A stretch of 64,000 nt of DNA from the NCBI RefSeq assembly GCF_014649535.1, contig NZ_BMTF01000008.1, positions 186,001 to 250,000 of the forward strand, given 5' to 3'. The notes beneath the pieces were generated by a model. The model made no database searches. It had not been told where the DNA came from and worked only from the letters and a program-made list of their open reading frames with translations. Of this stretch, positions 21,879 through 26,483 are shown piece by piece. Each line of letters starts with the position of its first letter. Position 1 is the stretch's first letter. The DNA is from Streptomyces gelaticus (GTDB lineage Bacteria > Actinomycetota > Actinomycetes > Streptomycetales > Streptomycetaceae). Both the position numbers and the translations under genes were made by a program.

Positions 21879-23435
21879 ATGCGGTCGATCCGGCTACGGA
21901 TTCTCGCGGTTCTCGCGGTATTGGGCATCGCAGGCGTTGTCGCCTGGCAACTGCTCCCCTCGGACGAGGTGAACCAGGACCCCGTCGCGGTGGGCACGAC
22001 GGACGAGGTCACCTCGCTCGATCCGGCCGGTGCGTACGACGCGGGTTCCTGGGCGATGTACAGCAACATCTACCAGTCCCTGCTGACGTTCAAGTCCGGG
22101 GCGGTCGTGCCCGAGCCCGACGCCGCCGAGAGCTGCGAGTTCATCGGCCAGAAGCTCCAGACGTACCAGTGCAAGCTCCGTGACGACCTGACGTTCTCCA
22201 ACGGCCGCAAGATCACGGCCGAGGACGTCAAGTACTCCATCGAGCGCATGATCAAGATCAAGACGGACGTCGGTCCCTGGGTGCTCTTCCCGAGCCTCAA
22301 GAACGTGGTGGCCGACGGCCGCACCATCACCTTCAACCTCTCCTCGCGCGACGCGACCTTCCCGCAGAAGCTCGCCACCGGAGCCGGTTCGATCGTCGAC
22401 CGCGAGTCGTACCCGGCGGACAAGCTCCGTGCGGGCGACACCGTCGACGGCTCGGGCCCGTACCTCCTGAAGTCGTACCGGCCGGGCGCGATCGCCGAGC
22501 TGGTCCCCAACCCCCTCTACAAGGGCGCGCTGAGCAAGACCGGTGTCCCGGTCACCGTGCACTACTACGACAAGTCGGAGGAGCTCCAGACCGCCTGGAA
22601 GGCCAAGCAGCTCGACGTCACGCACCGCGAACTGCCGCCGGCCACGCTCGCCGAGCTGAACCCCGGTGACCCCGACCTGCGCGTCACCGAGGCGGAGAGC
22701 GCCGAGATCCGCAACCTCGTCTTCAACGTCCGGCCGGGTTCCCCGCTGGCCGAGAAGAAGGTCCGGCAGGCCATCGCCTCGATCATCGACCGCGGGCCCC
22801 TGGTGACCGATATCTACAAGGGAACCGTCGAGCCGCTCTACTCGCTGATCCCGCAGGGCTACATCGGACACAGCACGCCGTTCTTCGACGCCTACCCGTC
22901 GCCCGACCCGGCGCGCGCCGAGCAGCTGCTGAAGGACGCCGGCGTGCAGACGCCGGTGAACATCAGCTTCGGCTACGGCGGCGGGAACGAGACCCAGGCG
23001 AAGGAGGCCGCGGAGCTCCGCCGTCAGCTGGAGGCCGACGGGCTGTTCAAAGTCACGGTCCACGCCGTCGACTGGCAGAAGTTCCAGAAGGAGTACGCGG
23101 CCGGCAAGTACGACGCGTACACGGTCGGCTGGCTCCCCGACTACCCGGACTCCGACACCTTCAGCCAGCCGCTGGTCGGCCGCAACAACAGCCTCCACAA
23201 CGGCTACTCCAGCAAGAAGGTGGACAGCCTGATCAGCTCCACGCTTCAGTACGGCGACCGCGGACGCACCTCGGCCGACTTCAAGGAGCTCCAGGCACAG
23301 GTCGGCGAGGACGTGCCGCTGGTCCCGCTGTGGCAGAAGAAGGACTACGTCGTCAGCACGACGGACGTCTCCGGTTCGCAGTACCTCTCGGACGGCACCG
23401 GACTCTGGCGGCTCTGGGAGCTGAGGCGGATCTGA
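21879..23435 (+). CDS. ABC transporter solute-binding protein, family 5 (peptide type)
   Basis: 518 residues. An N-terminal membrane segment (LRILAVLAVLGIAGVVAW) lacks a lipobox Cys, so the protein is anchored by this helix or cleaved elsewhere. The binding fold shows VGTTDEVTSLDPAGAYD, FSNGRKITAEDVKYSIERM and a late YDAYTVGWLPDYPD segment. The ATG at 21879 follows AGGGAGAG; an earlier start at 21801 would add residues with no signal-like character. No permease or ATPase genes are adjacent, so it is an orphan binding protein that must share a transporter. Four 9-bp repeats begin in its stop codon. Confidence 0.92.
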   Translation: MRSIRLRILAVLAVLGIAGVVAWQLLPSDEVNQDPVAVGTTDEVTSLDPAGAYDAGSWAMYSNIYQSLLTFKSGAVVPEPDAAESCEFIGQKLQTYQCKLRDDLTFSNGRKITAEDVKYSIERMIKIKTDVGPWVLFPSLKNVVADGRTITFNLSSRDATFPQKLATGAGSIVDRESYPADKLRAGDTVDGSGPYLLKSYRPGAIAELVPNPLYKGALSKTGVPVTVHYYDKSEELQTAWKAKQLDVTHRELPPATLAELNPGDPDLRVTEAESAEIRNLVFNVRPGSPLAEKKVRQAIASIIDRGPLVTDIYKGTVEPLYSLIPQGYIGHSTPFFDAYPSPDPARAEQLLKDAGVQTPVNISFGYGGGNETQAKEAAELRRQLEADGLFKVTVHAVDWQKFQKEYAAGKYDAYTVGWLPDYPDSDTFSQPLVGRNNSLHNGYSSKKVDSLISSTLQYGDRGRTSADFKELQAQVGEDVPLVPLWQKKDYVVSTTDVSGSQYLSDGTGLWRLWELRRI

Positions 23436-23469
23436 CGGATCCGACGGATCCGACGGATCCGACGGATCC
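23434..23469. repeat. Four exact 9-bp tandem repeats just after the solute-binding protein gene
   Basis: GACGGATCC occurs four times without interruption; the first copy overlaps the TGA stop. Confidence 0.95.
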
Positions 23470-23553: not shown

Positions 23554-24294
23554 CTAGGCCCCGTCCGGTCCGCTGGATCCGCCCCGGCGCCCGGACTTCG
23601 CGGCGCCGGGCAGGAACTCCTCCAGCACGTCGTGGACCTGCCGCACCAGCGGGCGCAGCACCCGGAACCGGGAGAGCGCGATGGCGCGGGCGCCGATCGG
23701 GGCGGAGCGCTCGACCAGGCGGCGGCTGCGCTCGGTGTGCTCCGTGCGGTCGTACACCCAGTACAGCACCAGACCCATCTGTATCAGCCACATCAACTGC
23801 GGGAGCAGCTCGGCCAGTTCGGGATCGGTCTTGGTGTCGGACCCGGCCAGGCAGCGCCGGTGGATGGAGATCGCCGCCTCGCGGGCCGCGACCGACTCCG
23901 CCGAGAACGGGCTGAGCGGGCTCTCCGGGTCGGCGGCGTTCTTGAAGAACTGGGCCGCGAAGCGGTGGTACGGCTCCGCCACGTCCAGCCAGGTGAGCAG
24001 GACCCCGCGCATGCGCACCGCGAGATCCCGGTCGCCGTCCAGGACCGGTTGCACGGCCGCCGCGTGCTCGGCGGCGAGCCGGTCGTAGAAGCCCTGGACG
24101 AGGTGTTCCTTGTTCGTGAAGTAGTAGTAGGCGTTCCCCACGGAGACGCCGGCCTCCTGGGCGATGGCCCGCATCGTCGTCCTGTCGTAGCCGCGTTCCT
24201 GGAAGAGCCGGAGCGCCGTTTCGAGGATGAGTGTGCGGGTCTGCTCGCTCTTGGAGGCCTTGGCTTCCTTCACGTCCTTCGCTTCCTTCACCAC
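23554..24294 (-). CDS. TetR family transcriptional regulator
   Basis: 246 residues. The HTH lies near residues 15-65: TRTLILETALRLFQERGYD, then TTMRAIAQEAGVSVGNAYYY, the classical TetR recognition helix. The rest is an all-helical ligand domain. The start is uncertain: the GTG at 24294 is 7 bp after a TACCCT -10-like box, and GTGs also occur at 24291 and 24273. It is the third gene behind the membrane protein and DCC1-like genes on the same strand. It is the best candidate to bind the two perfect palindromes upstream of that operon. Confidence 0.9.
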   Translation of the reverse strand: MVKEAKDVKEAKASKSEQTRTLILETALRLFQERGYDRTTMRAIAQEAGVSVGNAYYYFTNKEHLVQGFYDRLAAEHAAAVQPVLDGDRDLAVRMRGVLLTWLDVAEPYHRFAAQFFKNAADPESPLSPFSAESVAAREAAISIHRRCLAGSDTKTDPELAELLPQLMWLIQMGLVLYWVYDRTEHTERSRRLVERSAPIGARAIALSRFRVLRPLVRQVHDVLEEFLPGAAKSGRRGGSSGPDGA

Positions 24295-24317: not shown

Positions 24318-24785
24318 TCAGCCGCCGGATCCGGGGACCGTACAGCCACCCTCCCCGTCCCCGTCGCCGCACGGGGGAGCGGTCAGGGACCGGTACTCCG
24401 CGGCGGCGAGCACGGCGGCACGGGCGAACGGGCGGCCCGCCGGGGCGGCCAGCCGGTGCGCCCCGGGCCGGTGCTCGGCCAGCGCCCAGAGGCACACGAT
24501 CCACGCGGAGGCGGAGCGGTAGATCTGCCCCCGGTCGCCGACCACCGTGATCTCGTCCAGCGTCCCGGCGTGATCGAGACCGGGGAAGCGGCGGCGCGCC
24601 TCCGCGGAGGCCGCCGGGACGAGGTCGAGCGGCACGAGTTGACGCTGCTTCATCAGCCACTGCCGCAGATGGCGGCAGAGCGGGCACCGCGCGTCGTACA
24701 GCACCGTGAGGCGCTCGACGGGGAGCGGCCGCCCGCCCGGTCCGTCCGGCACGGCGCTCAGGCCCTCGGCGCGGGCGCCGCCCAC
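24318..24785 (-). CDS. DCC1-like thiol-disulfide oxidoreductase family protein (DUF393)
   Basis: 155 residues from a GTG at 24785, or 144 from a GTG at 24752 just after the upstream stop. The family signature LTVLYDARCPLCRHLRQWL includes the CPLC pair (Cys34 and Cys37 in the longer form), followed by LVPLDLVPAAS. The thioredoxin-like fold predicts redox activity, but substrates of the family are not known. The 5' end overlaps the upstream membrane protein gene or sits 5 bp beyond it, so translation is coupled. A second Cys (ASAWIVCLWAL) and a late PPCGDG are also present. Confidence 0.85.
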   Translation of the reverse strand: MGGARAEGLSAVPDGPGGRPLPVERLTVLYDARCPLCRHLRQWLMKQRQLVPLDLVPAASAEARRRFPGLDHAGTLDEITVVGDRGQIYRSASAWIVCLWALAEHRPGAHRLAAPAGRPFARAAVLAAAEYRSLTAPPCGDGDGEGGCTVPGSGG

Positions 24786-25189
24786 GGACCCCCGCCCGGT
24801 CCCGTCCAGCCCTGCGGGGCCACCGGCGGGGTCTGCTCACGCTCCATCAGACCGCGGCGGCGGATCTTGTTGAGCACATAGACATTGCCGAGGTGCATCA
24901 CGCCGAGGACGAGCAGGACGACGCCGAGCTTCACCGACAGCGCCTCGAAGAGCCCGCGGGCGTCGGTGACGCCGTCGGAGCTCCTCAGATAGAGGGTGAC
25001 GAAGCCCAGGTTGACCAGGTAGAAGCCGACCACCAGCAGATGGTTGACGGCGTCGGCGAGCTTCTCGTTCCCATGCAGCACATCGGCCAGGAACACCCTG
25101 CCGTTGCGGCTGAGCGTGCGCGCGACCCAGATGGTCAACGCCACGCTGATCAGCAGGTAGATGACATACGCGACAACAGTGAGGTCCAT
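24758..25189 (-). CDS. Small integral membrane protein of unknown function, first gene of the TetR operon
   Basis: 143 residues from the ATG at 25189 behind GGGAGGG. Three hydrophobic segments are visible: TVVAYVIYLLISVALTIWV, LLVVGFYLVNLGFVTLYL and LGVVLLVLGVMHLGNVYVL, then a basic cytoplasmic tail ending in Pro/Gly/Ala residues. It is not a family I can name. It leads an operon with the DCC1-like and TetR genes and is preceded by a strong promoter with paired operators, so its expression is probably ligand-controlled. Confidence 0.85.
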   Translation of the reverse strand: MDLTVVAYVIYLLISVALTIWVARTLSRNGRVFLADVLHGNEKLADAVNHLLVVGFYLVNLGFVTLYLRSSDGVTDARGLFEALSVKLGVVLLVLGVMHLGNVYVLNKIRRRGLMEREQTPPVAPQGWTGPGGGPWAAPAPRA

Positions 25190-25202: not shown

Positions 25203-25216
25203 TTGAACGCGTTCAA
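25203..25216. promoter_or_regulatory. Perfect palindromic operator, promoter-proximal copy
   Basis: TTGAACGCGTTCAA, a perfect 14-bp palindrome of the form TTGAAC-NN-GTTCAA, lies 13 bp upstream of the membrane protein start and just after the predicted transcription start. Confidence 0.85.
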
Positions 25217-25231
25217 AAGCTGTTGTCATGG

Positions 25232-25260
25232 ACTGTAGACCCACTTTTGAACATGTTCAA
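25232..25260 (-). promoter_or_regulatory. Promoter of the membrane protein-DCC1-TetR operon
   Basis: On the minus strand, -35 TTGAAC (25260-25255), a 17-nt spacer and -10 TACAGT (25237-25232) form a near-consensus housekeeping promoter. The -35 box is inside the distal operator. Confidence 0.75.
25247..25260. promoter_or_regulatory. Perfect palindromic operator, promoter-distal copy
   Basis: TTGAACATGTTCAA, the second perfect 14-bp palindrome of the same form, 44 bp from the first. It covers the -35 box and also contains the stop codon of the upstream MFS gene. Confidence 0.85.
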
Positions 25261-26483
25261 GCCGGATGGGCGGCAAGCTGCTCCGCCTGCTTGCCCGGCG
25301 CCCCGAAGCGTCGTACGCCCGGCACCGCCGCCGTCCCCAGGCAGGCCGCGCCGACCGCCACCGCGGCAACGGCCAGGGGCACTTCGGCACCCCAGGCCGA
25401 GGCGGCGAGCGGGGCCAGGGCGTAGCCGAGCGGCATCGCGCCCAGGGAGAGCAGCCAGTCGTACGAGGTCACCCGGGCCAGCGCGTGCGCCGGTACGGCG
25501 GACTGGACCGAGGTATCCCAGACCGGGCCGAGGAAGCCGAGGCCGGCCTGGGCGACACCGTACGCGGCGATGGTCAGCGCGACGGGCGCATGGGCGGCCA
25601 GCAGGCCGAGCGGCAGGGCGTACGTGGCCAGGCCCAGGTTGGCCGTCAGGACCGGGCGGCGGGGGCGGGCCCGGCCGGCCAGCAGAGAGCCGAGGAGCAG
25701 GCCGACCGCGCCGGTCTGGAGGAGGGCGATCCAGACGCCCTCGCCGCCCAGCTCCCGGACGAAGAGCGCCGGGCCGACCGTCATCAGGACGGCTGCCGCG
25801 CCGTTCCAGACGGCGTGCGCGATCAGGCTCGTCCAGTACCAGTCACGGCCGCGGACCTCTCCCCAGCCCTCCTTGAGGTCGGTGAACAGCGAGCGCCTCG
25901 GGACGGGTACGTGCCGGACCTCGACGGCGGCCAGCAGGGCGGCGCTCGCCGCGAAGGTGGCGCCGTCCAGCACGAAGGCCCAGCCCGGACCCGCGGTGAG
26001 GATCAGCGCACCGGCGAGGGCCGGCCCGCCGAGCCGGGTGGAGCTGTTGACGACCGCCATCAGCGAATTGGCGCGCAGCAGCCCGGACTCCGCCACGGTG
26101 CCGCGGATCAGCGGCGACGCGGTCGGCATCGCGAAGGCCCCGGCGGCGCCGCCGATCGCCTCGGCGAGGGCGATCTGCCAGAGCGCGGGGGAGCCGCCGA
26201 GCAGCTCGGCGCCGACGAAGAGCTGGGTCGCGCACCGTACGAGATCCGTGGTGAGCGCGACCGTACGGGCGTTGAAGCGGTCGCCCACGACGCCGCCCAG
26301 CGGCAGCAGGAGCAGCTTGGGGACCATCGCGCAGCCCAGGACGAGGGCGAGCGCCCCGGTCGAACCGGTGGCCAGATAGACGGCCAGGGAGAGGGCGGTG
26401 GGGATGACGGCGTCGCCGAGGAGCGAGAGCGTGCGGCCGATGAAGAGCAGGCGGAAGGCGCGCGTGCGCAAGGGGTGTGGCAT
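25257..26483 (-). CDS. MFS transporter, probable drug or metabolite exporter
   Basis: 408 residues with about twelve hydrophobic segments and the DHA3-like features of the N-half: FIGRTLSLLGDAVIPTALS and the cytoplasmic loop GGVVGDRFNARTV of the motif A type. Such proteins export drugs or siderophores; the substrate here is unknown. It is divergent from a MarR regulator with 88 bp between starts and a perfect palindrome in the gap, so it is probably repressed by that regulator. Its stop codon lies within the operator of the next operon. Confidence 0.9.
   Translation of the reverse strand: MPHPLRTRAFRLLFIGRTLSLLGDAVIPTALSLAVYLATGSTGALALVLGCAMVPKLLLLPLGGVVGDRFNARTVALTTDLVRCATQLFVGAELLGGSPALWQIALAEAIGGAAGAFAMPTASPLIRGTVAESGLLRANSLMAVVNSSTRLGGPALAGALILTAGPGWAFVLDGATFAASAALLAAVEVRHVPVPRRSLFTDLKEGWGEVRGRDWYWTSLIAHAVWNGAAAVLMTVGPALFVRELGGEGVWIALLQTGAVGLLLGSLLAGRARPRRPVLTANLGLATYALPLGLLAAHAPVALTIAAYGVAQAGLGFLGPVWDTSVQSAVPAHALARVTSYDWLLSLGAMPLGYALAPLAASAWGAEVPLAVAAVAVGAACLGTAAVPGVRRFGAPGKQAEQLAAHPA

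Follow-up and report, generated by a model that had tools for sequence, protein, structure and literature searches.

Two palindromes flank the promoter of a three-gene operon in the window (the whole 64,000-nucleotide stretch of Streptomyces gelaticus DNA analyzed here), and they raise the question of which protein recognizes them, with what effect, and at how many promoters. We computed the sites, their geometry and conservation, their co-occurrence with the TetR gene of the operon, and the identity of the target genes. The results point to this TetR-family protein, which would use the palindrome to repress its own operon, at two operators, as well as a small regulon, and would be released by a ligand; we put the probability of this reading, which draws on sequence comparison, at roughly 0.88.

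Two exact palindromes bracket a leftward promoter

Operator 1, TTGAACATGTTCAA, occupies positions 25247-25260 and operator 2, TTGAACGCGTTCAA, positions 25203-25216 (neither is assigned to a strand); both are exact palindromes, and the spacing between them in the window sequence is 44 bp. The promoter is directed leftward, on the minus strand. Its -35 element TTGAAC (25255-25260) is identical to the operator 1 half-site, the left half as read on the minus strand, and is separated by a 17-nt spacer from the -10 element TACAGT (25232-25237), the position of which predicts transcription to start at 25223-25226. Operator 2 begins about 16 nt past the -10 element, at approximately +8 to +22 of this predicted start, and lies between the start and the ribosome-binding site, a purine-rich stretch followed by the ATG at 25189. 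The sequence-only reading had described two perfect palindromes around a near-consensus leftward promoter, with one including the -35 element and the other just past the transcription start; base for base, palindromes and promoter are as it described, and the coordinates bear out the placement of the operators relative to the predicted start.

Chance occurrence of such palindromes was considered and rejected. When up to two mismatches are allowed, the window contains four matches against 0.44 expected. The whole 7.75-Mb genome holds six exact sites, all six just upstream of genes, and none for a reversed-pattern control. Across 199 genomes of the genus we counted 573 exact sites and seven matches to the reversed control, an excess far beyond chance. 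Allowing one mismatch in this genome adds three sites, against one for the control; the signal is therefore taken to be the exact palindrome, with one-mismatch sites treated as background.

Genes of the operon and identity of its TetR

The gene order downstream of the promoter, membrane protein-DCC1-TetR, had been read correctly. The first gene (24758-25189, minus strand) encodes a small membrane protein of 143 amino acids, for which profile searches gave no Pfam or NCBIfam match and an AlphaFold2 model reached a pLDDT of 64.9 and a pTM of 0.34. It is followed by a DCC1-like thiol-disulfide oxidoreductase (24318-24785, minus strand; start codon uncertain), which matches PF04134 with an E-value of 2e-11 and 45.5 bits against a cut-off of 27.8, and carries the CxxC motif as CPLC. 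The third gene (23554-24291, minus strand) encodes the TetR-family regulator that is the proposed binder; its GTG start at 24291 was picked by comparison with relatives. The gap of about 27 bp between the DCC1 and TetR genes falls inside the 35-bp intergenic distance at which co-transcription has been called (PMC3511530).

The regulator has an N-terminal helix-turn-helix domain (PF00440, 69.3 bits, cut-off 24) and a C-terminal ligand and dimerization domain (PF17931, TetR_C_23, 94.9 bits, cut-off 29.1). Over residues 10-232 it is a clear ortholog of the putative TetR-family regulator in PDB entry 3C07 (3c07_A, E-value 8e-102), which we take to be SCO4850 of S. coelicolor. Our literature search found no operator, regulon or ligand for 3C07/SCO4850, with SCO4850 appearing solely in the tables of two transcriptome papers; the present analysis gives a TetR of solved structure, for which we found no function, an operator and a regulon that can be tested. 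In a profile test for ScbR-type gamma-butyrolactone receptors (NF041196) the regulator scored 54.4 bits, below the cut-off of 150 and over the helix-turn-helix region only.

The two-site promoter is conserved across two orders

We collected 161 TetR loci, 134 of which have the membrane protein and enough upstream sequence. Both sites are present at all 134, perfect in 131 and with one mismatch in one site in the remaining three. Among 116 distinct promoters, the 12 half-site bases are conserved at 0.99-1.00 identity, while the flanking columns mostly lie at 0.35-0.7; the spacing between sites is 43-46 bp in the operon promoters of relatives. Of the 116, 84 have TACAGT as the -10 element and 11 have TAGAGT. 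In 121 of 128 distinct operon promoters a -10-like hexamer follows TTGAAC at a distance of exactly 17 nt; the operator half-site has therefore become fixed as the -35 box. The central dinucleotide differs consistently with position: 71 of the 116 upstream sites have AT there, and 81 of the 116 downstream sites have GC.

The arrangement is not confined to the genus. Within the same order, a different genus contributes five loci (L168-L172) at which the operon has both sites 45-46 bp apart and a TetR 50-52% identical. From another order, three genomes (L223-L225) have the operon with sites 43 bp apart and a membrane protein 54-64% identical; over these eight loci TetR identity is 50-61%. Palindromes in the regulator's own promoter are conserved together with the gene, both within the genus and outside it, in other genera and a second order, and the DCC1-TetR operon with its two sites is found in two actinomycete orders. 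Variants of the arrangement were also seen. At L223 the pair is shifted upstream by about 450 bp and stands before another small reading frame. A further genus of the same order (L165, L166) has the two sites ahead of the TetR gene; at neither locus was the membrane protein or DCC1 found between them and the regulator gene, and L166 has a different membrane-like reading frame at this place. Each of the two sites at L167 carries one mismatch. At L186 (2442-2499; G205:C37) a second two-site promoter is followed by sequences resembling pieces of the membrane protein and TetR genes, and this region is apparently a decayed duplicate.

The same palindrome precedes further operons

The sequence-only reading had considered control of the membrane protein-DCC1-TetR operon, a view that proved too small, as the same palindromes stand at further operons and the operon's TetR, judged from the sites, very probably controls several of them. 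The remaining exact sites of this genome belong to three further promoters. Two sites 44 bp apart (C1:384225 and C1:384269, spanning 384225-384282; L005 3726-3783) precede an operon for YndJ (PF14158), a DUF1990 protein (PF09348) and a lipase maturation factor (PF06762 and PF25179). This two-site layout recurs in relatives, and all 14 distinct paired YndJ promoters have the -10 element at 17 nt. A single site at C15:145138 precedes a penicillin-binding protein (PBP; PF00905) with a MecA_N domain (PF05223) and occupies the operator 2 position: in 12 of 12 distinct PBP promoters a TANNNT hexamer ends 16-18 nt upstream of the site, as it does for operator 2. The single PBP site just past the predicted start is seen at L007 3139-3152 and at the orthologous loci L175-L178, L206, L210, L212, L214, L217, L219 and L222. 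Another single site, at C14:37433, stands before the gene for a small predicted lipoprotein; the hexamer CAGGGT lies at 17 nt here. In relatives, sites are also found before genes for an SDR/DUF1731 protein and additional small membrane proteins; one genus has them before genes for DUF1990 and a DUF2071-like protein (a weak match, below the Pfam cut-off).

A literature search found none of four exact 14-mers and no paper that names at least two of the regulon's families together, and no publication on the regulon came up in the literature searched. The regulon thus appears to be undescribed; it is conserved and groups several families without known roles, while its mechanism would be that of ordinary TetR autoregulation. 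It ties DCC1, YndJ, DUF1990 and bacterial lipase maturation factors together, and knowledge of the ligand would point to the signal that these families answer. In Streptomyces, the short, invariant operator could also be used as it stands as a sensor promoter.

Operator positions favor repression

Physical binding, repression rather than activation, a ligand, and an envelope or lipid role are what we infer from these sites. Dimers of the TetR would bind TTGAACNNGTTCAA and occupy both operators at once, one over the -35 element and the other just past the transcription start, shutting out RNA polymerase at both ends of the promoter; the repressor would in this way limit its own synthesis along with that of the membrane protein and DCC1. 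Through a promoter with this two-site layout the same TetR would also repress the YndJ-DUF1990-lipase maturation factor operon, and it would likewise act at the single-site promoters of the MecA_N-type PBP and the small lipoprotein. A probably lipophilic ligand would release it.

TetR/tetO is the prototype of autoregulated TetR-family repressors with paired palindromic operators. The system described here resembles it in pairing a dimeric helix-turn-helix repressor with its own promoter, where palindromes overlap the (here predicted) promoter elements. It differs in that the regulator gene is the last of the controlled operon rather than divergent from its target, and in that a second operon shares the two-site layout.

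Repression is proposed because the sites overlie the -35 element and adjoin the start, where a bound protein is expected to block polymerase. The same positions count against the idea that the TetR binds both palindromes and at some promoters works as an activator or as a dual regulator. TetR-family activators exist, and the PBP promoters, where the site is found solely in the downstream position, could be read this way, but we consider such a role very unlikely.

As to the signal, our best guess is an envelope or lipid signal, since membrane, cell-wall or thiol-redox proteins account for several of the targets. Extending this, a single lipophile-sensing TetR might switch on DCC1, YndJ, DUF1990, the lipase maturation factor, SDR/DUF1731, the PBP and small lipoproteins as a hitherto undescribed actinomycete envelope or lipid-redox response. 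This is a tentative proposal that may well prove wrong; if true, it would give several orphan families a common pathway.

The sites follow the operon's own TetR

The TetR was detected in 147 of the 199 genomes of the genus. The membrane protein occurs in 116, together with the TetR in 115; the exception, G017, was rejected as a case of sites without the TetR, as a contig end cuts its operon just after DCC1. Exact sites average 4.3 per genome (minimum 2) in the 115 genomes with both genes, 2.09 in the 32 with the TetR and no membrane protein, and 0.14 in those with neither, where 45 of 51 have none; these counts treat related genomes as separate, which inflates the Fisher p-values. Taken by genome class, they indicate that the sites persist with the TetR even where the local target has been lost and nearly vanish without it. 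Recurrence in other genera and another order is a stronger argument than the genome counts. The recognition helix, TTMRAIAQEAGVSVGNAYYYF, hardly varies over 173 loci, the other order included, and is as invariant as the operator.

In the genus, 23 distinct loci that have the TetR and no membrane protein showed no exact site within 1.2 kb upstream, and one-mismatch remnants occur at only two of them. The correspondence is not perfect. Three genomes (G092, G133 and G142; loci L194, L195 and L196) keep the TetR with its recognition helix intact and have no exact site anywhere in the genome. In G139 and G147, both assemblies of hundreds of contigs, sites stand at recognized target genes and the TetR was not detected. 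On balance, conservation at all 134 loci, co-occurrence, the invariant helix and recurrence in other genera support the original proposal that the operon's own TetR is the probable binder, and autorepression by this protein may be regarded as well supported by comparative genomics.

A different regulator could bind the palindromes, most plausibly a KstR-like TetR encoded on contig C3 (C3:318584), which scores 197 bits, below the KstR cut-off of 280. The palindrome TTGAACNNGTTCAA fits the KstR core motif TnnAACnnGTTnnA (PMC1995591), and the operon's TetR has features in common with KstR (Rv3574) of mycobacteria: membership of the TetR family, a 14-bp palindrome with this core, and autoregulation combined with a regulon. 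The operon's TetR is, however, similar to KstR in the helix-turn-helix region only (NF033703, 35.6 bits against 280), its targets are different and are not steroid-catabolism genes, and the KstR-like protein of this genome is a separate gene. That protein is nearly ubiquitous, occurring in 187 of the 199 genomes, including most of those that lack both the TetR and the palindromes, and so does not track the distribution of the sites, which across genera and an order follow the operon's own TetR instead. Despite the fit of the motif, we rejected the KstR-like protein as the binder, and consider binding by another regulator very unlikely.

The upstream gene and minor observations

An MFS gene (25257-26483) lies upstream on the same, minus, strand as the operon. 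Its stop codon overlaps operator 1 at 25257-25260, a feature absent from the sequence-only reading that makes read-through from the MFS gene possible, and 67 bp separate it from the membrane protein gene. That the operon is mainly transcribed by such read-through, leaving the palindromes of little weight, is scarcely credible given that the -35 element, 17-nt spacer and -10 element are conserved before the operon in nearly all relatives, that paired sites also precede the YndJ operons, which have a different upstream gene, and that in the other order they precede the operon beside translations that, read by eye, resemble an AcuC-type deacetylase and a sigma factor.

Positions 23434-23469 of the window hold four head-to-tail copies of GACGGATCC, right after the stop codon of a substrate-binding-protein gene and between convergent genes.
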